Source of the DNA: Diphasiastrum complanatum
Lineage: Eukaryota; Streptophyta; Lycopodiopsida; Lycopodiales; Lycopodiaceae
DNA: 64,000 nucleotides
Assembly: GCA_029204225.1 (NCBI GenBank)
Contig: CM055096.1
Location: 35,958,611-36,022,610, forward strand
Reading direction: 5' to 3'
Numbering within the stretch: the stretch's first letter is position 1; every line of letters begins with the position of its first letter. Both the position numbers and the translations under genes were made by a program. Below the pieces are notes generated by a model that worked only from the letters and a program-made list of their open reading frames with translations, searched no databases and was not told the DNA's origin. Shown one piece after another: positions 8,725 to 24,940 of the stretch.

Positions 8725-9535
8725 GGTCATTTCCAACGCGGATTTTCACGCAAATTTTCAATTTCTTAGCCGAATATCGATTTCAAGCGCGTCCTTTCCA
8801 CTGTTAACGCTCTGTTGACTTACTTGCGCTTGGAACCAATACTGCCTAATCTGGTATCCCATTCAAGCATGCCTTACATCTCATTTCTTTTCTGATCTTT
8901 GTACACGCGCTCGGATCCGAAACCATGTTTTCTTATATCTCTTTCGAGCGCACATTGTCTGACCTTCATTTTGCGCCTGAGAGCGATACTGTTAATTTTT
9001 CATCTGTATTTTTTGTTCAAAATGTCTAATTTTGATTCTAGTTTGTTTTCTTTTTTTCATGAATTTGGTATTAGTGATAATTTAGAGTATTTCAAATCTC
9101 TTTTTTCTTTTTTTATTTTTCCTTCTATTACTGAGGGTCTCGGTGTGGAAGCATTTTCAGATATTTATCTCAGATTTTTCTGCTCAGTACTCCCTTATTC
9201 AGATCTCAGAATAAGGACATGATTCATTAACAGGACCTAGTGGCACTTGGCAAGCATAGCTATAAAGCTAAGCTTGACAGAATGTTCACCAAGTTACATA
9301 ATGATTTCAAGTCTGTAGATGAGTGCCCAATTCACAATAAAAAAATGTAGATTTGTTGATTTTCAGGCAGCATTTGTTTGTTTTTTCTTTTGTTAAATAT
9401 TTATGACTTGGAAAGCTAGCCCTTCCACTTCTTTTTTGACATTATCGGATATATCGGATCTTCAAGTTTGATTTCACTGAAGCTGAGACTCTTTGCATTT
9501 TGAGCAAAGAGCTTGATGAATTTTTAAATATAATT

Positions 9536-9688
9536 TGTGAAAAGTTTTTACACTTGGTGTGTGTGTGCGGGCTAGAGATTGAGCCTAGGACCTCCCCCAT
9601 TCCGGTGGGGTGCTCTACCACTGAGCTACTCGTCCATTTTTGTTCCTAGAGTGTTGTGCAAGGGCTATAGCCTTGACACTTTCTAACA
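9536..9688 (-). repeat. LTR (3' on minus strand)
   Basis: On the minus strand it runs TGTTAGAAAGTG to CTTTTCACA and closely matches 11777-11929. It contains the palindrome GGCTATAGCC and a tRNA-like segment. Confidence 0.9.
9566..9637 (-). ncRNA. tRNA-like segment within LTR
   Basis: On the minus strand: a box A/D-arm of GTAGCTCAGTGGTAGAGC (9630-9613), an anticodon-like stem CCCCA...GGGG with loop CCGGAAT, and a T-arm CTAGG-CTCAATC-TCTAG (9589-9573). The acceptor ends do not pair, so this is not a working tRNA. It may act as an internal RNA polymerase III promoter. Confidence 0.75.
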
Positions 9689-11776
9689 CTCCCCCTCAAG
9701 GCATAGCCCTTTTTAGCTAGCGCCCGCCTAGACCACACCCACAACCATGTGAAACAAAACTTGTGATATGATTCTACAAATGTAATTTGTGCCTCTAAAG
9801 AGACTAGATTTGAACATATTCAATAATCTAGAAGCATCTACAAAAGATCTAGCTCACAAACCTAAGAATCAATCTTCACACTAATGACTAGTCACTTGGA
9901 AACTTTGCTTTGATCACTAAGACAAAAGCACACAATCTTTGAATCAAATCACAAAAGAAATCTGATCCAAACACTCCTATTGGACTCAACAAATACCAAT
10001 GACTCTTTCTTTTGAGAGTTGAAATGGATATGAAAAGATTTGACACCTAGATTTTCCTTTTCACTTGACTAGTTCTCTCAACACTTGAAATTCTTGAACA
10101 AAAGATGGGATTTGTTTCAAAACACATGAAAATCAAACTTAATCACTTGTTTTGGACTCACTCTTGACCCAAATAATCTCACTCTTGAGATTTAGAATGA
10201 ATTTGATTTGATTTGACAACAAACTATACCACCAATTTCCACAAAACATAGGATCTACACTAGATCCCTCAAACTTGACATGTACATTTGATTCAAACAC
10301 ATAAAATTAAGATCCAATCACCCCTTTTGGAATCGCCAAAAAATCTCACTCTTGAGATTTGGAATGGATTTTTAATAGTTTGATAACAACCTATGTCAAG
10401 AATTTTTCACCAAGCTTTAAAAATTAGACACATAGAGATTCAAAAAGATCCCAACCATGCATGAACACTCAAATATGGACTCCTCCTTGTTCTAGAAATC
10501 CAATGGGATCACAAATTGACCCTCACACTTTCACAAAGAAAGTTGAATATAACTAATTTGAGTTTCATACATACTATGTCAATTTTTGCTCAATAAATTG
10601 AATTCATTCACCTCTATTGGATTCCACCAATGACTCTATCTCTTAAGAGTTGGAATGAAATTCAAAATCAAAAGTTGTGATTCTTCTTTGTCACTAAGAT
10701 ATTGTGCTTCAAAGAGCTTATAATGCCACGTAGAAAGATTTGATCACCTAGGAGAAGACAAACTCTCCAATACCAACACAAAATGAGCTTCTAGATCTTG
10801 CCCTCTACCAAGGAAAGAACTCTTAGAAAATTGGATCTCTCTCTACACATTTGCCATAGACACCTTAATGACTCTTTTCAAACCTCACAATCACTCAAAC
10901 AAATTGATTAGGGTTGAACAATGTGACATGGATCTCAATCTCTTTTCTAGAACTCTCAATTGAAGCCAATCTATGTCAAATTCTACAAAAGATTTGCATA
11001 GATGCTATATATGCACTAGAAACTCTCAAAGGTTTCACTTGGAGGACAGATCCAAAGACGTTTTCTAGCAAATTGATGCTTCTAAACTTGAACCTGTCAC
11101 TCTTGAACAAATCTAGAGTCATGGTACAATGGATTTCATCCTCTCACCTTGTATATCACTCCTTAATCTATGATTTTTGGCAATTTTCTCTCTCAACTTT
11201 GACATGTACTCAAAAAATCAGAGAAACACATTCAATGCACCTGAATCAAGCTTCAAATCAAATTATTTGGATGATCTCATCCAAGAACAAATCATAGGAA
11301 TAGAATCTCTATAGAAAAAGCTTGAATTTGCACTAAAAATTTCTAAATTTGGGTGTATGAGTCAAATTGTGCATCAATTTGAATTTTCTCAACCAAAATA
11401 GGTTCAGTATGGCCCCACCCATGTGGAAGGTACACCTACAGCCTACAACAAGTTTTGGTACAAAAAAATTGAATCTAGCTATCAATTCAAAGTCTCTACC
11501 TCAAAATTAGCTAGTTTCCACAAACTTGCTTATTTGGGAGATTTAGCATCCAACTGAAACATAAGGCTCCAAAACTAGTATTGTACGTTCTAGCACGTGT
11601 GAAAAGTACCCCTGCAGCCCACAACAAGTTTTTGTCCATAAATTTTGAGTATACCTATCCTATCCAACTCGCCACATCAAAATTAGCTAGTTTCCAAAAA
11701 CTTGCTAATTTGGGCTTAGTTTTGGATCAACCCCATCAATTCTTCATAAATCCTCTTGTACTTGGCTCTAATACCA

Positions 11777-11929
11777 TGTGAAAAGTTTTTACACTTGGTG
11801 TGTGTGTGCGGTCTAGGGATTGAACCTAGGACCTCCCCCATTCCAGTGGGGTGCTCTACCACTGAGCTACCCATCTATTTGTGTTCCAAGAGTGTTGTGC
11901 GAGGGCTATAGCCTTGACACTTTCTAACA
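11777..11929 (-). repeat. LTR (5' on minus strand)
   Basis: 153 bp, same length as its partner with few differences, suggesting a fairly recent insertion. It is next to the primer binding site. Its tRNA-like segment is the better preserved of the two, with a box B of GGTTCAATCCC. Confidence 0.9.
11806..11877 (-). ncRNA. tRNA-like segment within LTR
   Basis: Box A/D-arm GTAGCTCAGTGGTAGAGC (11870-11853), anticodon-like arm with loop CTGGAAT (T33 and A37 in place, anticodon position GGA), and a perfect T-arm CTAGG-TTCAATC-CCTAG (11829-11813). There is no long variable arm and the acceptor stem is unpaired. It has the architecture of a tRNA-derived pol III promoter, as in SINEs. Confidence 0.8.
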
Positions 11930-12424
11930 TAATTGATTTTGATGCCAATGATCTTCTCCCTAGTGTTGACGATGTACATAATGATGAGCTTTACTCAGGG
12001 AAAGATTGCTTAAAGTGGCTATGGAGGTAATGCGCCATAAAGAAGATGATCTACCTTCTGAAGAGGAGTTTCTTAGAATTCAAAGTCAACTTAGTTTTCC
12101 AAAACCAACTATGTATTCACCAACTATATTGACATCGAGAGGTGGACATAATATTGATGGAGAGACAGCAATCAAGGAAGATAATGTTGAATGCGTAAGT
12201 ATTGTATCTTATTATGGACTAGTAGATTCGTTATGTCAAATTATATACTGGAGCTTACTTTGGACTTTTTTATTTCAAAAAACAATTTTTCTTGATGATT
12301 TTGCAATTCATCGAGGAGGGCAGAGAACTTAACGAAGATGAAGACGAACGGTTCACAAACATGAAGAATCCACAAATGAGATTCCTTTGCGGTCCAACAA
12401 GAGAGAAATTGGTGGAATTGCAAG

Positions 12425-12931
12425 TCATGGAGGCCGAGGAGCAGCCAACAATATTTTGTGACAACCAATCAAGCCAAGCATTAGCAACCAATCCCACATT
12501 CCATGCAAGGAGCAATCACATAGAGATTGCTCACCATTTTGTGAGGGAAAAGGTTCAAGCAAAGGAGATCAAGCTACCTCATGTGTCTTCTTCAGATTGC
12601 CTTGCTGATCTACTCACTAAAGCCTTGCCAAAGGCTTCATTTATCAAGTTAAGATCAGCCTTAGGAGTTGTAAATAGATGTACTATAGTTGTATCATGTA
12701 AAAATTGAGGAGTGTTAGAATTAAGCAATTTTCACATGGTTTTTGATGTATTTTGACATCTATGTGGATCCACACGTGTGAGGACCTGTCCACATGTGTG
12801 AAATGACACTTGTAATATTCAGATCCATTTTGATTAGCTTTCATTTGAGTCTAATATGACATCTCCTAAATTATAGGAGTTAGGTCCTAGATTGTAGGAA
12901 TCTAGAAGGTCAACACAAACCACCAATGGAT
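12425..12931 (+). mobile_element. copia 3' end: RNase H tail, PPT and first part of LTR
   Basis: The frame to 12708 carries the copia RNase H C-terminus (FCDNQSSQALATNP, HIEIAHHFVREKV, DCLADLLTKALPK). A polypurine tract (AAAATTGAGGAG, 12701-12712) precedes an LTR starting TGTTAGAATTAAG at 12713. The LTR is cut at 12931 by the next element (TSD tggat) and resumes at 22228. Everything upstream of RNase H is missing, and the RNase H frame is fused directly to the preceding unrecognised coding piece. Confidence 0.8.
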
Positions 12932-13760
12932 TGTGGAAAAAAAAGTGCAAAAAGGACCAAGAGTGGATCCTAATCCGATCCTCAAGAGGGATTGGTTGTC
13001 AGATTACTTGATCTATCAATCTATTTCAGATTAAGATCAATCTAGATCAATTCTAGACACAAAATCCTAACAAGAACAATCATTAGTTGAAGGTAAGTGT
13101 ACTTTCTGGTTTCACACGTGTGAAACACTATCTGAGTATGGACTCCAACCTGAAAATCAAGTACACATTGATAGAAAACAATCAAAACAAATGTAGACAA
13201 ATGGAGAGAATCACTCAAAATTGTTTTTCAAAACCAAGATTGGTGTCACACACTAATTATGGCCAAATGTGGCTCTATATATACAATAAGTGGGAGCTCG
13301 TGGTACTGATCATCCTTTGATCCCACATGTGTGAGGGTGCTTTTTCATATGATGATTCATCATGCAAAATTGACACTTGGACAAAACCTTCTATTTTGAG
13401 CACTTTTGGTCCATTTTCCTTCTATATGGAGATCTACTTGAAAATCTTCTAGAAGTCAAAATTCGCCTACTTCAGCTTATTCCACACATGTGAGCTATTG
13501 TCTACACATGGGATGTGACACCTAACCAAAGGATGTGGCTCATGCAAGCAATAGATTGATGCCATGTGTCATATGTCTAAAAAACTAGTTTTTGGCCTTT
13601 TTAGCCACTAGAACTTGAATTAAATCATATGTACAACCTATATGATTATAGTACATGACAAGTACACTAGTTTCACACGTGGGAACAGGCTCCCCACATG
13701 TGTGTTTATCTATATACAAGATTTTTGGCCTCTACCAAGCTTATTTTTGCATTTTTCACA
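12932..13760 (-). repeat. LTR with palindromic CACACGTGTG motifs
   Basis: Intact 829-bp LTR (plus-strand ends TGTGGAAAAAAAAG and GCATTTTTCACA). It carries several CACACGTGTG or CACATGTGTG motifs (about 13113, 13324, 13483, 13675, 13694). Confidence 0.85.
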
Positions 13761-13775
13761 CTCCTCCTCAAAAAT

Positions 13776-15732
13776 CTAGCTTGGTAAATCTAGCTTGATG
13801 GAAAACATGATGATCGTGAACTTGACTCCATGGGCTGAATTGGTCTTTCTTGGTTCAAAAGGTGTGAAGATCAGCCAATGAGCTTGATGTTGATCTGAAA
13901 TCACCATATCCATGATAGTGCTTCTTTGATGTTGACATCTTTGATGAACTTGAGAGCTTTGCACCATCCTAGCATCTTTGAAATTGATTCCTTCCAAATT
14001 TCATGTAGATGCTTGACTTTGAGGCTTGCTCCTTCTTCATGTGCATGCTCCTCCATGAGAAAATAAAGATTTCTTCTTGACTTAGTAGGATCACAAAGAT
14101 CTAACATCATGTTACCATGATCTAGAGAATTAGACTTATCCAAATTGGCAAGACTATGCATGCTATAATAACAAGTATTTGCATCATATCTTCATGCTTG
14201 TTTACCATGCTAATCTCAGATCCAATGAGTCTAAATACTTCATTATGGAGATAAGTGTCTTTAGAAGATTATTCACTTACTCTCATAAAGAGTTTACAAT
14301 TTGCCTCAATACAAATTTTCAACCTATGAGTGAACAAATCACTTTTGCTCTTACATGACTCAAGAGCATACATTCGATGAAATAACCATTTGCTTTCTAA
14401 TTGATTTAAAATCGATTTCAACCTTTTAAGAACATCATCTATGTTCTCAAGAGAGACTTTATACTCAACTAGTATGGCTTTACTCCAATTTTGAGATGCA
14501 ATGATCTCACTAAAGCAAATTGATTTATCAAATGACATAAGAGAAGTAAGTATGAGATGTATACCACATGAGATATGCTCCTCTTTCCCTTGAAATGTGA
14601 GCCACATGGAATCAACCATATTTCTTGAGTTTCTTTTTGGAATCACAACTTGAGAAGGTCTCTCCTCCTCAATCCTTGGCACACTTGAACCTTGAGATGA
14701 TTCTTTAAGATCCTCTTCATGGTGATCCTTCTTGATGGAAATCCGAGACCTCCATGTCTCATAATCATCACAACAACTATGACCACACAATATTCACTTC
14801 CTATGATTATCAAAATTACTTATGCTAGAAACATAAGTCCAAAAATCACCACAACTTGGCATGATTTTTCTAATATTGAAATCAAAAGGCATTTCCATCT
14901 CAATAAGGCTAACTCCTTGCTTATGGATATAAGTGTCCACTTTGGATGCTTCACTTATTCTCATAAGAAGTTTACAACTTGCCTTTAAGATTGAAAACTT
15001 ACAATTTTCATCTTTATAAATGAACACATCATTCATGATTTATTGAAACCAAAAGATCCTATATTATGAAGATATTTCCATTTCCTTGACTTCCTAACTA
15101 ATGTAAGCTTACAAGGGAAACATATTTTGCTATCTTTTAAGGCATCACACTCATAGTATTGCCTTAATCCACCTTTGAGATACAAACATCTCTTCAAAGC
15201 AAAATGGTTCTTCATAAGTTGACATGATAGCATAAATGAAACCATTTTCATTTTGTGATTGCTGCTCCTTATTCTTGATTGATTTCTCTTGGATCATAAC
15301 AATAAGTTTGAACTTGTCCAAAGTTCCAGGCAAAATACTTTTCAAGGGCATAAAATAAATACAAGTTACTTTCATGAAAGTGACATCTATTTTTGCATCT
15401 TGAACCAAACAATGCACTTCCAAATGAAAAATTTCAAAAGATTTGACATGTGTTGTGATGGACTCTTGAAGACAAATCTTGCAAGTTCTTGTGAGACTCC
15501 AAGCCTCATTCACCTTTCCACAAAGGAAACACCTTTCCTTGGACTTGTCCTTCTTGTATTTGCATTTCGAGCTTGAAGTTCCATCCTTCACCTTGGCCCC
15601 CTTGCTTTGGTTCTCCTTGGATGGATTGGTCTTCTTTTTGTAGCATCTTGAGAAAATATATCCTCCCTTGCCACAAAGGTTGCACTTAGGATCCTTTCTT
15701 TCCTTCAATAGGATGCCACCTATTGATGCCAT
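13776..15732 (-). pseudogene. decayed copia gag/RT fragments
   Basis: Minus-strand frame from ATG 15732: a zinc-knuckle-like CNLCGKGGYIFSRC, where the expected His is Tyr (a C-to-T change would do this), a Lys-rich stretch and a second CFLCGK, then EEPFCFEEMFVSQRWIKAIL, which matches the start of copia reverse transcriptase. Further left, 14790-14269 repeats a similar RT-start block (FSEIIASQNWSKAILVEYK) after a linker-like acidic segment. Integrase and most of RT are gone. The repeated blocks suggest the interior was assembled from deleted copies. No intact protein. Confidence 0.6.
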
Positions 15733-15733
15733 G

Positions 15734-17361
15734 TGAATAAAAACCTATGATATGATTCTACAAATGTAATTTGTGACTTTCAAGAGACTAGATTTGAACA
15801 TCTTCAATAATCTATCTACAAAAGATCTAGCACAAACCTAAGAATCAATCTTCAAACTAATGACTAGTCACTTGGAAACTTTGCTTTGATCACTAAGACT
15901 AAAGCACACAATATTTGAATCAAATCACAAAAGAAATCAGATCTAATCTCCTATTGGACTCATCAAATACCAATGACTCTCTTTTTTGAAAGTTGAAATG
16001 GATATGAAAAGATTTGGCACCTAGATTTTTCTTTTCACTTGACTAGTTCTCTCAACACTTGAGATTCTTGAACAAAAGATGGGTTTTGTTTCAAACACAT
16101 GAAAATCAAACTTAATCACTTATTTTGGACTCACTCTTGAGATTAAGAATGAATTTGATTTGATTTGAAAACAAACTATACCACCAATTTTTCACATAGC
16201 TTAAAAATTAGACAACTAGAGATTCACATAGATCTCAACCATGCATGAATACTCAAATATGGACTCCTCCTCATTCTAGACATCCAATGGGATCACAAAT
16301 TGACTCTACTCTCACAAAGAAAGTTGAATAAAACTAATTTGAGTTTCATACATACTATGTCAGTTTTTGCTCAATAAATTGAATTCAATCACTCCTATTG
16401 GATTCGCCAATTACTCTACCTTTTAAGACTTGGAATGAAATTCAAAATCAAAAGTTGTGATTTTTCTCACTAAGATATTGTGCTTCAAAGAGCTAATGCC
16501 ACTTAGAAAGATTTGATCACATAGGAGAAGACAAATTCTTCACCAATAACAACACATAATGAGCTTCTAGATCTTGCCCTCTACAAAGGAAGGAACTCTT
16601 AGAAAATTGGATCTCTCTCTACACATTTGTCATAGATACCTTAATGACTCTTTTCAAACCTTACAATCACTCAAACAAATTGAGTAGGGTTGAACAATGT
16701 GACTTGGATCTCAATCTCTTTTCTAGAACTCTCAATTGAAGCCAATCTATGTCAAATTCTACAAAAGATTTGCATAGATGCTCTATATGCACTAGAAACT
16801 CTCAAAGGCTTCACTTGGAGGATAGATCCAAAGATGTTTTCTAGCAAATTGATGCTTATAAACTTGACCCTATCACTCTTGAACAAATCTAGAGTGATGG
16901 TACAATGGATTTCAACCTCTCACCTTGCATATCACTCCTTAATCTATGATTTTTAGCAAAATCTCTCTTAACTTCAACATACACTCAAAAAATCAGAGAA
17001 GATCAACTAATGCACCTATTTCAAGCTTCAATTTTAATTTTTTGGCTAATCTAATCCAAGAACTAATCAAAGGATTAGATTCTCTGTAAAAAATGCTTAA
17101 TTTTGCAACAAAAATCACTCAAATTGAGTATGTGAGTCAAATTCTACAAATTTTTAAAATTTCTCAGTCAAAACAGGAGCTGTATGGCCTCACACGTGTG
17201 AAAAGGGTTCCTAAAGCCCACAACAAGATCTGGACCAAAAATTTTGAGGATAGCTATCAAATCTAACTTGCTACACAAAATTTGACTAGTTTCCAAAAAA
17301 CTGTTAATTTTGGCTTTGATTTGGATTAACCCTATCAATTTCAACAAAAACTCTTGTACTT
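15734..17361 (-). other. long untranslated leader of the copia derivative
   Basis: 1.6 kb without coding potential between primer site and first ATG. It is collinear with the interior of the small LTR element at 9689-11763, showing common descent although their LTRs differ. Confidence 0.7.
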
Positions 17362-17507
17362 GGCTCTGATACCATGTGGAAAAAAAAGTACAAAAAGGAC
17401 CAAGAGTGGATCCTAATCTGATCCTCAAGAGAGATTGGTTGTCAGATTACTTGATCTATCAATCTACTTCAGATTAAGATCAATCTAGATCAATTCTAGA
17501 CACAAAA

Positions 17508-18161
17508 TGTGAGAGATTTCAACTAGTTTAGTCTAGTTTAGTCACATTTTGGTAAATTGTCAATAAGAGGCCAAAACTCATTTTAGACTTAGAGATAAAC
17601 TTTTTGAAGTTATATTAGTTTAAAATACATTCAATAAACACTTTTGGAAAGTGTGGAAAAGTTGGTAGTCGAGTTTGAGAGAGATTCAAATTTGAACTTT
17701 GGGTACATTGAATCTAGACCCAAAAATAGTAGGGTTTACATTTTGGAGGGAAAGCCAAGTGGCCAAATAGGATCTGGAAACTCTATAAAAGGATGTAACT
17801 CGTGGAGAGACACATCTTCTCTCTTCTCTCTCTCATTTCATCATTATACATGGTTCTCTTTGGGTTCTACTACTCATTGGTGCACTATCTTGGTGTTATC
17901 TTGCAATCTTGTGTGTAGAATGATCATTTATTGATATTTTCGGTTTCACACGTGTGAAATATAGTAGGGTACTGTAATTGTACGGATAGCAAACATATTT
18001 TATGTTTTGGTTCATGTTTGATCAATATCTCTTAGAGTTTGCATCTCATTTTGTATGTAGATGCTGATTTTTCTACATTGGCAAGATTGTTGGTTTGCTC
18101 CTTATTGTAACCAAAGATTTGGGACATGGATTGGACCTTGAATGATCTGAAATCCTTCACA
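17508..18161 (+). mobile_element. copia 5' LTR
   Basis: 654 bp, TGTGAGAGATTTC to CCTTCACA, followed at once by the primer site TGGTATCAGAGC at 18162. It resembles the LTR at 39234-39880 and the partial one at 42278-42768. It contains TTTCACACGTGTGAAA near 17943 and a TATAAAAGG near 17785. Confidence 0.85.
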
Positions 18162-18763
18162 TGGTATCAGAGCTATTGTGTTTCAGGTTATGAAAGGATC
18201 AACCATCTTTAGCAAGGATTTGGAGGAGTTACCAATGCTAGAGCATGCTAGATTGATCTCTACTCAAAAATCAGCATTTTTGCATGTGTAGAATCGATCT
18301 TTTGTAGGTCAAAACTCAATATAGGGTTATATACTTGATCAATTCCAATTTCACACTTGGTTTACTGGATTTAGATGATATTTGGTGCATTAGGAAGGTC
18401 TCATTGGAGTCTACAAGAAGATATACCAAGTTTCTAGAAATTGCATGTAGAATTTGAGATATTCAATTTTTTGTTATTTTGTCAAAACCCTAATTTTGAT
18501 TGGATCTCTAGTTTGTGAGGTTAATGAACTTCATTTGAGTGTATTTCAATCTTAGGAAGTGGCAAGAATCATTAGATTGAGGATAGATCATAGGTTGATC
18601 AAGATTTCACTATGCTATGTGTTGATTTTCTAGTTAGAAGTGCTAGAAGAGATTTGAGAGGTTCCATATCTTTGTGATTTCTTCTTGAGTTCAATTGTTG
18701 ACATTCAAGAGAGTGCTTTTTGCATTGGAACAGGTTGAAAGAAGAAGATCAGGTCACTTCAAC

Positions 18764-20056
18764 ATGGCTACAAGTGGTGGATTTATGTTGGAGAGCAATG
18801 ATAGGCTTACCTCAATCAACTATTCTACTTGGAAGGTGAGGATGGAGTCCTTATTGGAGATGAATGAGTTGATGGAGATTGTTGTAGGTTTGGAGGAGAG
18901 GCCAGCAACTCAACAAGATCAAGTGAGGTATGACAAGAGAGCAAAGAAAGCTCTACACATGATTAAGATGAATGTCACCAATGAACTTCTCAAGGAAGTT
19001 GGTAAGTGCACATCATCTTTGGAGGCTTGGGAAGCTTTGAAGAAGCTTTATGAATGCAAGTCTACATCAAGAGTGCTTACTCTTAGGAGGCAAATCTTTC
19101 AAAGTTTGCAAAAGAAGGAAGAGAGTACTCATGCTTTTGTTTTGAGGTTTAAAGCATTCAATGATGAGTTAGCATGTATTGATGAAAGCATTAAGGAGGT
19201 AGAGCTTGTTCAAGTTATACTTAATGGCTTGTTGGATGATCATGCTAATCTTGTTCAAAGTTTTGCTATTCAGAAGACTTTGCCAAGTATTGTGGATTTG
19301 CAAGAGATCTTGGTGAATGAGGAGTATAGGCTTCAATCAAGAGGAGGTGGATCTACATCGACATCTCATTATGAAGAGGATGCTATGTTCATCAAAGGCA
19401 AGTTCAAGGGCAAAGGCAAAGGCAAGTGGTCTAAAGGGCAAGATCAAGGTGAGACTTCTTCTTTTGGCAAAAAGAAAGATAAGTCTAAGTTGAAATGCTT
19501 TTATTGTGGAATCAAAGGGCATTTTGCAAATGAATGTTTGAAGAAGCAAAGAGATGAAGGTAGCAAACAAATCAACTTTACTACTAATGATGAGGATCAA
19601 GGTGGTGGTGATTCTCTTTTTATGTGTTCTTTAAGTCCAATATCAAGTGAAGGTGACAAAGATTCATGGTGGATTGATAGTGGAGCTAGCTCACACATGA
19701 CTAGTCACAAGGAGTTCTTTACTTCTTTGGTCACTTATGATGGAGCCAAGAAAGCAATTCACATGGCCAATGGTGGTGAGTGTGTGATTGAAGGTATTGG
19801 TTCAATTTCTATTTGTCTCTCTACTAATAGGAAAGCAAGACTTGATGGTGTTCTTTACATTCCTTCACTTTCAAAGAATTTGTTAAGTGTTGGTCAAATG
19901 ATAGAGAAAGGATACATGGTAAAGTTTGGGGGTGATGCTTGTTTCATTACAAAGGAAGAAATCTTGGTTGCTAGGGGCAATAGACAAGGTAGACTTTTCA
20001 AGCTTGATGCTTTTGTTATGGCTAACAAAAAGGATGGAATCTTGCTGGAAAAATGA
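18764..20056 (+). pseudogene. copia Gag-protease reading frame
   Basis: Intact 430-codon Gag-protease start of a copia polyprotein. Gag begins MATSGGFMLE; SINYSTWKVRMESLL and the RRQIFQSLQKKE region mark the UBN2-type gag domain. A Lys/Gly-rich segment precedes the zinc knuckle CFYCGIKGHFANEC (about residue 245), and the protease site is DSGASSHMT (D about 305). The ATG at 18764 is preferred over an upstream in-frame ATG in the leader. Integrase, RT and RNase H are missing because the element is cut at about 20050, where unrelated DNA supplies the stop. It could still make Gag and protease-like protein but cannot transpose alone. Confidence 0.85.
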
Positions 20057-20426
20057 CTTTCTTGGAATCATAACAAAAGAATGTAGAAGAACCACCTCCT
20101 TCATGCATGCACCTAGCAACATCCTTTTCCATATGATCAAAGAAATCATTAACAACAATCTTTTCCAAGGAAGAACCTTCACCTCCATTGATGAAGTTAG
20201 CTCTTTCCTTACCTTTTGCATGCTTGCACTTGCCATGAAGAACCATTGAAACACCATCATTATCCTCAAGACTAGCCAAGTTAGCACAAAGATGAACATC
20301 TCCAAGAAGCATATTAGACCTTGACCTACATCTAGCATAAGGAAGCTTGTTAGACTTTGCATACGATCCACCAATCTTATTGATGCTAAAAGGTAACTTT
20401 GGAAAGTTGAGAGAAATCTAGAAATT
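20022..20426 (-). pseudogene. unrecognised minus-strand frame
   Basis: Open for about 130 codons, from 20426 to the stop at 20022, with an ATG at about 20312 (MLLGDVHLCANLASLE). The reading (KLPFSINKIGGSYAKSNK, FINGGEGSSLEKIVV, NDFFDHMEKDVARCMHEGG) looks like real coding sequence. Its first part runs from the leader of a minus-strand LTR element whose primer site is at 21053-21065; the last few codons overlap the antisense of the copia frame. I do not recognise it. It may be a captured host exon. Confidence 0.4.
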
Positions 20427-21782
20427 GACTGTGAGAGAAGACTCACAACAATCTATCTTGAATTTGGATCTAGCTTCTATCAAAAGATGAAGAACATGCA
20501 AGTATGAAGTGTATCTCTCCCACGAGTTTCAAAGAACTGATAAACTCTCTAGGATCTTGATTTCAACTCAAACACAATACTTGTGTGAAATGAAATGTCT
20601 TAGACCTCACAATATCCAATTCTACTTGATTGATAATGAAAATTGAGAATATTGGTGAAAAGAACTGATGTGTGCTCACTTTGGCATATCACATGAGATG
20701 AGTGCTCTCCCTATCTCTTTGATTGCCTAAAACTCTTCTAAAAACAGATCAAATTGATTTAGAAACTCGAGCAGCACAATCTACTCTTCAATACCTATCC
20801 AACAAGCTATAAAACATCAAATTTGAGTCATTCCTTGAGAAGTAACACTCGAACAAAGAGGGATGATTTCACATGTGTGAGCTCTCTATCCATACAGGGC
20901 TCAACTGGAGTAGATCAGACTTGATTTGATTCACTTATGATCCACAGATGGCCTGATTAAAAACGAGTTTGTATCCTTTCCCAAAATCCGAATTCCTGCA
21001 AGCAAAAGCACTCAAGATCTGATGTATGCACCCTCCTCTCTTCAAAGCACAAGACTCTGATACCATGTGAAGTTTTTAGCACGTGTGAACTTCACCACAC
21101 ATCCTACAGGACCTTCATGAGGTGTTGTGATTGCACAAGAATGATCAATGAACAAATTACTTAAAAAATCCAAGGCAAGAGCACAATGGCATACAACAGA
21201 CTGAAAAAACTAACCCCTTACTATGAGAGATGGATATCAGAAAATATTCTAAGTGCTCACTATGGAGAAAATAGGCTGCTCTCAGGTAGAGAGAGAAAAT
21301 CAACACCAAAAACTCGAGTAGAGAGAGATAACCATCCAAATTACTATGATGTCAAGGAAGTAGACAAAAGAGAATATTGCGGTGACACACTCTATCCATT
21401 CCATACAGATTGATTACCAACAAGCAATATGGTGCTTCATCAACTTCTTCTTCGACTCTCAATATTTCCTCCATGGGAACAAGGATTACAGTTTGAAGCT
21501 AGCAAAATGGATTGAATTCGACGGCTTTGGATCTGTAATGAGGCAATAAATTATTTTTTGGATGACACATCTTCTATCATGACTATTTAACCAAGGCGAT
21601 CAAGCTGATCAAACACATGTCTTCATTTTTTAGGAAAAAAATGTTTAAGTAGGGGGAGTGTCATGTACTTTTAGTACATCAGTGCTTTTCAAGACAATAT
21701 AATATCCATTGTAAGCTTTGTAGGCCCAAAAGGCGCTAGCCAAAACTCATTTTAGACTTAGAGATAAACTTTTTGAAGTTAT
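20427..21782. mobile_element. mosaic of LTR-element fragments
   Basis: Contains a minus-strand leader ending at a primer site (complement of TGGTATCAGAGTC, 21053-21065) and an LTR beginning TGTGAAGTTTTTAGCACGTG at 21066. About 21640-21657 has a plus-strand polypurine tract (AAGTAGGGGGAG), followed by a TGTCATGTAC... LTR start. A fragment of the 17508-type LTR (ACTCATTTTAGACTTAGAG) lies at about 21740-21782. Boundaries are approximate. Confidence 0.55.
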
Positions 21783-22222
21783 AATCCCACATGTGTGAAT
21801 GTGCTTTTTCATATGATGATTCATCATACAAAATTGACACTTGGACAAAACCTTCTATTTTGAGCACTTTTGGTCCATTTTCCTTCTATATGGAGATCTA
21901 CTTGAAAATCTTCTAGAAGTCAAAATTCGCCTACTTCAGCTTATTCCACACATGTGAGCTGTCCTCTACACATGGGATGACACCTAACCAAAGGATGTGG
22001 CCCATGCAAGCAATAGATTGATGCCATGTGTCATATGTCTAGAAAACTAGTTTTTGGCCTTTTTAGCCACTAGAACTTGAATTAAATCATATGTACAACC
22101 TATATGATTATAGTACATGACAAGTACACTAGTTTCACACGTGGGAACAGGCTCCACACATGTGTGTTTATCTATATACAAGATTTTTGGCCTCTACCAA
22201 GCTTACTTTTGCATTTTTCACA
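21783..22222 (-). repeat. outer part of the split right LTR
   Basis: Matches 13319-13760 of the left LTR and ends TTTTTCACA before TSD tggat. It carries the same CACATGTGTG and CACACGTGGG motifs. Confidence 0.85.
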
Positions 22223-22227
22223 TGGAT

Positions 22228-23538: not shown

Positions 23539-24940
23539 TATGCAAAATGAGAAATAGAATAATAGTACCAATAATCAGTATAGTACTGTGTTTGGCCACA
23601 AAAGGTCAAAAAGGTGGTTTTCTTGCAAAATAGTGAATTTGGACAAGAATTTGTACTTTTTTGGAGTAGAACTCGCAAACAGACTGTTGAATCATAATAC
23701 AATACTTGTAGAGTCTGATAGAAAATTTGTACTAAGAAAATACTTGTGTATATATATATATATATATATAATTTGTCAAAAATCATTCAGATTGTAAGCG
23801 ATTTCATGGTATGGTCCACGATTTCTAATATTGAATTTTTTTTTTCTGAAATTCGTCAGAAATCATTCAGATTGTAGACGATTTTGTGGTATGGTCCATG
23901 ATCTTTTATATGGAGTTTTCACTGACAAAATATGAATTTTTAAATTTTTTTGGATTTTTTGTAAAGGACAGAATTCGCAGAAGAGGTATAGAAATCGTTT
24001 AGACTGTGGGCGATTTCATGGTATGGTCCACAATTTCTGATACTGAATCATTTTTTTTTAAATTCGTCAGAAATTGTTTAGACTGTGGATGATTTCGTGG
24101 TATGCATAGTCCATAATTTCTGATATGGAGTTTTCACTAACAAAATATGAATTTTTTAATTTTTTTGGATTTTTTATAAAGGACAAAATTTTTAGAGGAG
24201 GTATAGAAATTGTTCAAACTTTGGGCGATTTCATGGTATGCTCCCCGATTTCTGATACTAAATTTTTTTTCTTTAAGAATTTGTCAAAAATCGTTCAGAG
24301 TGTGGATGATTTCGTGGTATGCTCCATGATTTCTGATAGGGAGTTTTCACTGACAAAATATGAATTTTTGAATTTTTTTGAATTTTTTGTAAAGGACAGA
24401 ATTCGCAGAGGATGTATAGAAATCGTTTAGACTGTGGGCAATTTTATGGTATGGTCCACAATTTTTTATAGAGAGTTTTGTTGACACACAAGGATAATAG
24501 TGGAAAAAGTGGTTTTCTGGCAGAAAACAGGCTAATCTCTGAGACAAAATTCGTGGAGCTGTTGGAGGACTAATCTTTCATAGATCTAGCCTCAATGAAG
24601 TCGGCGAATTTTGACTCAAAGATTTGGATGAAAAACAAAGGATTTTGACAATAAAACATTGGGTTTTCAGAAAATCTGAGTAGGGTCAAAAATCGTAGAG
24701 GTGGTAGGATGAAAGATGATGTTTTGAACCAATGAAAGGAGGCAAGAGGAGGCCCGAGCACCTTCCCTCAAGCTATGCACCTTCCAATGGGAACACAAAT
24801 GAAATAGAAAGATAATTCTCCAAATAGTAAGCAAGATAGCTTAATCTCAAAATTGTTATTTTACAAGGGAAATGCCTCTCTTCTTATAGCAAGAAGGGCC
24901 TTCCATAAGCTTCTACTAACTTATGGGATTAGTTTCTAAA
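23539..24940 (-). mobile_element. gypsy 5' leader and probable LTR part
   Basis: Upstream (to the right) of the gypsy gag on the minus strand. It contains a (TA)n run at 23749-23770 and a 213-bp tandem repeat. 24770-24940 (GGAAATGCCTCTCTTCTTATAGC) may belong to the LTR. I could not find a clear primer site or LTR limits. Confidence 0.4.
23767..24480. repeat. 213-bp tandem repeat, about 3.3 copies
   Basis: The phrase TTCATGGTATG recurs at about 23804, 24016, 24231 and (as TTTATGGTATG) 24444, giving periods of 212-215 bp. Each unit has two related halves (about 84 and 128 bp), both beginning TGGTATG...TCCA..ATTT. It lies in the leader of the gypsy remnant. Confidence 0.85.

Follow-up and report, generated by a model that had tools for sequence, protein, structure and literature searches.

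Structure of the element

At positions 9536..11929 of the window, which is the whole 64,000-nucleotide stretch of contig CM055096.1 of Diphasiastrum complanatum analysed here, lies an LTR element of 2394 bp whose sense strand is the minus strand, as read from its LTR pair, TSD, primer site (PBS) and polypurine tract (PPT). The 5′ LTR (11777..11929, minus) and the 3′ LTR (9536..9688, minus) measure 153 bp each and enclose an internal region of 2088 bp. The TSD, TAATT, is intact on both sides (9531..9535 and 11930..11934), which indicates a single integration of this copy. The PBS, TGGTATTAGAGCC (11764..11776, minus), adjoins the LTR that starts at 11777 and is of the methionine type (compare the Cassandra PBS, TGGTATCAGAGC), and the PPT, GAGGGGGAG (9689-9697, minus), adjoins the LTR that starts at 9536. 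An earlier note on this DNA had described the 153-bp LTR limits, the TSD, the primer site and the polypurine tract, and all of them are present as noted.

In the sense of the element, the PBS is followed by a leader captured from a partner family with longer, tRNA-free LTRs (9750..11763, minus), by a 5-nt microhomology, CATGG, at the leader/tail junction (9745..9749, minus), and by a 61-bp tail (9689..9749, minus) that is the tail of the short internal region of the Helenus family. Within the internal region, open frames on the sense strand do not exceed 55 codons. The two LTRs differ at 10 positions, of which 7 are transitions, and the K2P distance between them is 0.069; this divergence corresponds to about 2.6 or 4.9 million years at rates of 1.3e-8 or 7e-9 per site per year.

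The tRNA-like block

Both LTRs contain, in the sense of the element, the box A/D-arm and T-arm/box B that the earlier note had read in them, and the tRNA model of Rfam (RF00005) matches both. The block of the 5′ LTR (11809..11871, minus) has a box A and an intact box B, GGTTCAATCCC, and scores 41.7 bits (E = 8.9e-07 in 2.9 kb); that of the 3′ LTR (9564..9635, minus), in which box B has decayed to GGCTCAATCTC, scores 32.3 bits (E = 0.00035). Both values are above the gathering score of 29, and the two are the sole Rfam matches at gathering level in the 64-kb window. The block forms good D and T arms and a poor acceptor stem. ARAGORN under default settings called no tRNA gene in the window, so the block is tRNA-like and no recognisable tRNA gene.

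Several other assignments were rejected. A tRNA gene is ruled out by the lack of an ARAGORN call, and a tRNA gene or a SINE as the class of the whole element by the LTR pair with its TSD, PBS and PPT. Cassandra is ruled out by an LTR segment without a 5S rRNA match (the 5S family is absent among the Rfam matches up to E = 10). A chance match is ruled out by the presence of the block in both LTRs and throughout the family.

The family in the host genome

The LTRs belong to a Helenus (TRIMp3) family. Most commonly, this family occurs in the 1.74-Gb host genome as a non-coding element of about 379 bp, with an internal region of about 73 bp between two LTRs of 153 bp. The plant nature of the host is also reflected in the types of element present and in an NRT1/PTR-type gene, for which NRT1.1/NPF6.3 chains were the top PDB matches. 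The earlier note had called the element miniature, a word that suits the family but does not describe the window copy, with its 2088-bp internal region taken mostly from another family. The short internal region consists of the PBS and the 61-bp tail ending in the PPT, and measures 72-75 bp in 20 distinct two-LTR copies. In the genome search with the LTR that the earlier note had proposed, the query gave 69 matches from the best 40 of 688 candidates, many of them paired 226 bp apart. Matches of the three genome queries come from the best 40 candidates scored, out of 688, 967 and 1967 at first look, and the family statistics are therefore biased towards copies that resemble the window one. Among these best candidates, the remaining full-length matches in the list share 89-96% identity with the window 5′ LTR, and the window tail is 87-98% identical to the tail of the short copies.

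Among the 20 two-LTR chains (LTR alignments below 130 bp dropped), nine carry a perfect 5-bp TSD, two a TSD with one mismatch and four none, one of the latter having a truncated LTR; the remaining five lie inside arrays, where the flanks are themselves element sequence. Pattern searches of the whole genome counted 665 LTR starts (at most 2 mismatches in 26), 407 short PBS-CATGG internals (at most 3 in 29) and 342 box A-to-box B blocks (at most 3 in 55), numbers that are not mutually comparable because the mismatch limits differ. Reversed-pattern controls for all three gave 0. The three numbers are whole counts, and the individual places are those among the first 100 listed for each.

The tRNA scans covered 32 of the loci L001-L038 (leaving out L001, L005, L009, L012, L015 and L032) and 8 partner loci. 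RF00005 was matched at gathering in 47 of the 51 distinct LTRs from the 32 scanned loci, with up to 61.4 bits, and the other four are diverged copies (84-88% identity); LTR alignments below 140 bp were dropped from this set and from the set of 53 LTRs used below. A block private to the window copy is thereby ruled out. Box A and box B are family-wide, the point on which the earlier note had made its reading depend, and the tRNA-derived analogue of Cassandra is a real family trait. Most ARAGORN calls on the family LTRs lack a proper anticodon, which makes working tRNAs unlikely despite scores up to 61.4 bits. A SINE origin of the LTR is possible.

Some further observations concern the short copies. 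Array-like runs of Helenus LTRs and internal regions occur at L019 and at G000:C6:17888001-17889399, and resemble the arrays of Cassandra and other plant TRIMs. A tRNA-Thr (GGT) prediction (L007:2140-2212) lies near a Helenus LTR, outside it. Searches with exact patterns in viral contigs, and in bacterial and archaeal ones, gave 0 matches. In short copies (e.g., L004, L017 and L029) the U5 end is partly complementary to the start of the tail, which would put the PBS inside a hairpin; all 12 of the copies folded, out of the 20, exceed their mononucleotide shuffles in stability (z -2.2 to -5.3). The two hairpin arms are set apart by the leader in the window copy.

Chimeric internal region and partner family

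The window copy is a chimera, in which Helenus LTRs and the 61-bp Helenus tail surround a foreign leader of about 2 kb. The leader matches the partners up to CATGG, and the tail matches Helenus from CATGG on. Over about 2.0 kb the leader is 94.6-95.2% identical to three partner copies; compared with 16 copies the identity is 91.8-95.6%, the mutual mean of those copies being 94.4%. A tree built from 18 leaders places that of the window inside the partner clade, with an end branch of 0.025 that equals the median of the tree (0.025). The region shared with the partners stops at the ATG of the partner ORF, and the Helenus tail starts at CATGG. This motif is common to the short Helenus internal region and the ORF start in the window partner, L070 and L072; L069 and L071 differ from the CATGG partners just upstream.

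At the other end, Helenus and partner are nearly identical over some 20 nt across the LTR end and the PBS. Such a stretch could seed crossing over, and the long copy might then have come from chromosomal recombination of a Helenus and a partner copy and not from reverse transcription. Two exchanges within one element would be needed, however, with both LTRs being Helenus and the TSD intact, and we regard this origin as very improbable.

A related partner element lies at 12932..22222 (minus; identified by its leader match), with a 3′ LTR at 12932-13760 (829 bp), an internal region at 13761-17374 and a 5′ LTR of which part is missing (17375-17508 and 21784-22222, minus); its TSD, TGGAT, was read by eye at 12927-12931 and 22223-22227. 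Nested in this 5′ LTR is a Copia element (17509..21783, plus) with a gag ORF at 18689-20056, for which just 45 bp of a second LTR were found. The neighbouring partner was rejected as the direct donor of the leader, its own leader being 83-88% identical to that of the window copy versus about 95% for other copies. Its 829-bp LTR carries TATATATA and yields no tRNA match up to E = 10, and there is no tRNA at gathering in the 8 partner loci with 1.5 kb of flanks. No reverse transcriptase (RT) was found in the partner copies read, and a Pfam search of the partner ORFs returned 0 families.

The window leader contains internal duplications of about 170 bp (10130-10405 and 11393-11714). By alignment, the neighbouring partner is without one copy of each, and repeat matches at corresponding positions of the leader are seen in closer partner copies (e.g., L069 and L070). 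One partner copy (L072:3646-5343) has a 566-aa open frame with cysteine motifs and no Pfam match up to E = 1. Array-like repeats with units of about 71 and 207 bp are found at 23780-24490 of the window.

Junctions elsewhere in the genome

The leader/tail junction (28 bases, at most 2 mismatches) occurs at 2 places genome-wide, the window and C1, and at C1 it sits in a different structure; as far as a 28-base pattern with at most 2 mismatches tells, the junction is private to the window copy. The junction of Helenus U5 with PBS-AAGTACAAG (46 bases, at most 3 mismatches) occurs at 13 places, the window included. C1 and C7 each contribute an inverted pair, of which both arms are counted, and two small contigs are included, whose junctions resemble the C16 and C17 matches and may be duplicates. 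Six junction loci were read, representing 8 of the 13 places, with C8 read over 1 kb; one of the six is the window, which has the long leader.

At C1 a 621-aa gag frame (Retrotran_gag_2, E = 1.4e-24) follows the leader of a Copia-type element, which has its own pair of 674-bp LTRs (84% identical). C8 follows the C1 leader up to the gag start region within the 1 kb read, and C13 continues into a leader related to that of C1 (83% over 392 bp). For C11 and C7 the match to the C1-type leader is confined to the first 52 and 42 nt, and in C11 the Helenus tail is absent before the LTR. The number of leader kinds present is therefore at least two.

These junctions could also be read as remains of a long, coding Helenus parent with a tRNA-like LTR, a PBS-AAGTACAAG leader and gag, from which the 379-bp form would be a deletion product and to which the window copy would be a relative. 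The exact joining of a Helenus LTR to PBS-AAGTACAAG at all 13 places, the gag frame after the C1 junction, the course of the C8 and C13 leaders, the short matches of C11 and C7 and the missing tail in C11 are in favour of such a parent. Each of the at least two leader kinds, however, comes from a family seen with its own LTRs (829 bp in the neighbouring partner, the 674-bp pair at C1), and the window leader does not stand out within the partner clade. The 407 short internals also stand against 13 junctions, and among the 100 listed of the 665 LTR starts, 20 have same-strand neighbours at short spacing and 2 have neighbours at 0.5-15 kb, one of these being the window. We consider a long coding parent unlikely. 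The opposite direction, from short to long, is based on these counts and on the leader tree rather than on an outgroup comparison.

Two of the junction loci are rearranged. At L076 (G000:C1:1459500-1469400) an inverted leader-PBS-U5 piece stands directly before a Helenus tail and LTR, and is continued by a PBS, a leader and the 621-aa gag frame, a complex aberrant product. At L082 (G000:C7:34555600-34556050) two facing Helenus LTRs surround two PBS-leader pieces as a palindrome.

Transcription signals

The earlier note had suggested that the block would give the element an internal pol III promoter. For the window copy, it is doubtful that the block works as a promoter of a full-length pol III RNA. 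Runs of five or more T residues terminate transcription by pol III. The body of the window copy contains 29 runs of T4 or longer and 8 of T5 or longer, among them a T7 that lies 341 nt beyond the block, numbers near the composition-based expectation. The eight T5 and longer runs make full-length pol III transcription of the window copy unlikely, and such a stop to transcription would agree with the junction search, in which no second copy of this structure turned up. In the short form, no run of T4 or longer occurs between the end of the 5′ LTR and the 3′ tRNA block in 20 copies versus 4.9 expected overall, a depletion that is weak because just 4.9 are expected in all and the copies are related. 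As judged from these sequence features, the use of pol III by the 379-bp form is plausible. The motif CTTTTCACA (T4) ends 15 of the 20 3′ LTRs of the short form. In most short copies a T4 lies close to where the LTR ends, near LTR position 149. Even in the short form, pol III starting in the 5′ LTR would need to read through this T4 once and to stop at it later, which counts against the pol III model.

The block might alternatively be the fossil of a SINE or tRNA insertion that drives nothing, the RNA being made by pol II from U3 or from flanking DNA. This would agree with the LTR-end T4 of most copies read, with the improper anticodons of most ARAGORN calls, and with strict patterns for box A and box B together in just 29 of 53 LTRs (both window LTRs included; box A in 35). 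The strict box B pattern, however, is kept in 45 of the 53, and tRNA scores reach the 61.4 bits given above. The mean column conservation of the boxes (box A 97.7%, box B 96.1%) shows no decay relative to U3 (97.0%) or the whole block (95.2%), nor are the boxes more conserved. Moreover, neither TATAWA nor TATATA has a match in the window Helenus LTRs, whereas the partner LTR has TATATATA. A fossil that drives nothing thus seems improbable to us, and initiation by pol III within the LTR is the reading carried into the model below.

Origin of the window copy

We consider it probable that the window copy arose from the Helenus family and a co-packaged partner by one minus-strand template switch at CATGG, followed by a single integration. 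According to this model, pol III transcription most likely begins within the Helenus LTR, driven by the tRNA-derived block with its box A and box B. The short Helenus RNA would be packaged, with a methionine tRNA as primer, and a Copia-type helper would integrate it with 5-bp TSDs. If one particle held both a Helenus RNA and an RNA from a pol II-type partner, whose LTRs are longer, minus-strand synthesis would have copied the Helenus 3′ LTR, PPT and tail first and then switched at CATGG to the partner RNA, right at the start of the partner ORF. The 2-kb leader of the partner would then have been copied as far as the partner PBS, and an ordinary transfer at the PBS would have completed the synthesis. 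The predicted product, a Helenus LTR, the partner PBS and leader, the Helenus tail and a second Helenus LTR, would have been integrated once.

The LTRs themselves bear on this origin in two ways. At 9 of their 10 differing sites, one window LTR has the family majority base and the other a minority base (found in 0-2 of 51 LTRs at seven sites and in 7 and 10 of 51 at two), and therefore both window LTRs fit decay from one ordinary family LTR. In an LTR tree the two are not sisters (153 bp, little support), which counts against the template-switch model.

A template switch needs both RNAs in one particle, and thus the helper of the partner would be the best candidate for the mover of Helenus. 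The PBS and the 5-bp TSD fit Copia, and the partner copies read are without RT; the helper to be expected would be an autonomous Copia element with RT and the PBS TGGTATCAGAGCCAAGTACAAGA. More tentatively, template switching within shared particles may repeatedly join tRNA-type (pol III) LTRs to leaders taken from various Copia-like elements of the pol II type, a possibility that we rate well below the single event proposed for the window copy.

Relation to known elements

Helenus elements, also named TRIMp3, are TRIMs with tRNA-like LTRs described from fungi, animals and one plant (Kojima 2024, PMC10886601). The earlier note could not place a tRNA-derived analogue of Cassandra, a kind that thus already had a name. 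The sole plant listed there is Selaginella moellendorffii (LTR 120, internal region 85 bp), and no other report of Helenus or TRIMp3 in plants was found in the open-licence literature searched; in the main text of the plant TRIM survey of Gao et al. 2016 the word 'tRNA' is absent, and 5S sequence is given for Cassandra only. The Helenus family of the present host appears to be new to the described set.

The elements described by Kojima (PMC10886601) and those of the host have in common box A (TRGCY..YGG) and box B (GGTTC) in the LTRs, a PBS, a PPT, the 5-bp TSD of plant and fungal elements, the low likelihood of a functional tRNA, and tandem arrays, which are reported for one Helenus family. 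The window copy has tRNA sequence in both LTRs, the boxes (with a decayed 3′ box B), PBS, PPT and TSD. Its 2394 bp, mostly a foreign leader within the internal region, exceed the reported lengths of 311-1263 bp, in a screen made under 1000 bp (PMC10886601), whereas the form of about 379 bp is as short as expected; both are without a long frame. The use of pol III by Helenus is presented as unproven in that paper too. Helenus is described there as moved by an autonomous LTR element, Copia in fungi, and the helpers of Cassandra are called unknown (PMC10886601).

Three known systems invite comparison. Cassandra is likewise a TRIM with a pol III promoter sequence in the LTR, the PBS TGGTATCAGAGC and tandem arrays, but its LTR is 5S rRNA-derived and not tRNA-derived. 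LTR-1_PTrit and Copia-9_PGr of rust fungi (PMC10886601) also share an internal region between a shorter and a longer element with unrelated LTRs; LTR-1_PTrit, however, is a large established fungal family, whereas here one chimera stands among hundreds of short copies, and unlike Copia-9_PGr the partner copies read here are without RT. The template-switch complexes of Triticeae (Sabot and Schulman 2007, PMC1950507), where VejuL and BARE2 are cited as further cases, resemble the window copy in the fusion of two LTR elements with an intact TSD, explained by co-packaging and switching. They differ in that extra LTRs are kept, and none of the complexes described there combines an LTR of the tRNA type with a leader of the pol II type.

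Significance

The family adds a plant host, with a genome of 1.74 Gb, to a kind of element listed from one lycophyte. The chimera would record which elements share a particle, and so provides a lead to the helper of a parasite with tRNA-type LTRs. Side by side, the short form and the T-rich long chimera make it possible to test, in a natural setting, whether elements of this kind are limited by pol III transcription. If LTRs of this type have indeed been transferred repeatedly, Helenus LTRs would be promiscuous promoter modules, with chimeras that lead to the TRIMp3 helpers. Long chimeras would in that case be dead ends, as T-runs would stop pol III in them, which would explain why no second leader/tail junction of the window type and structure was found. 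The recurrent fusions of Helenus LTRs with leaders are the part worth following.
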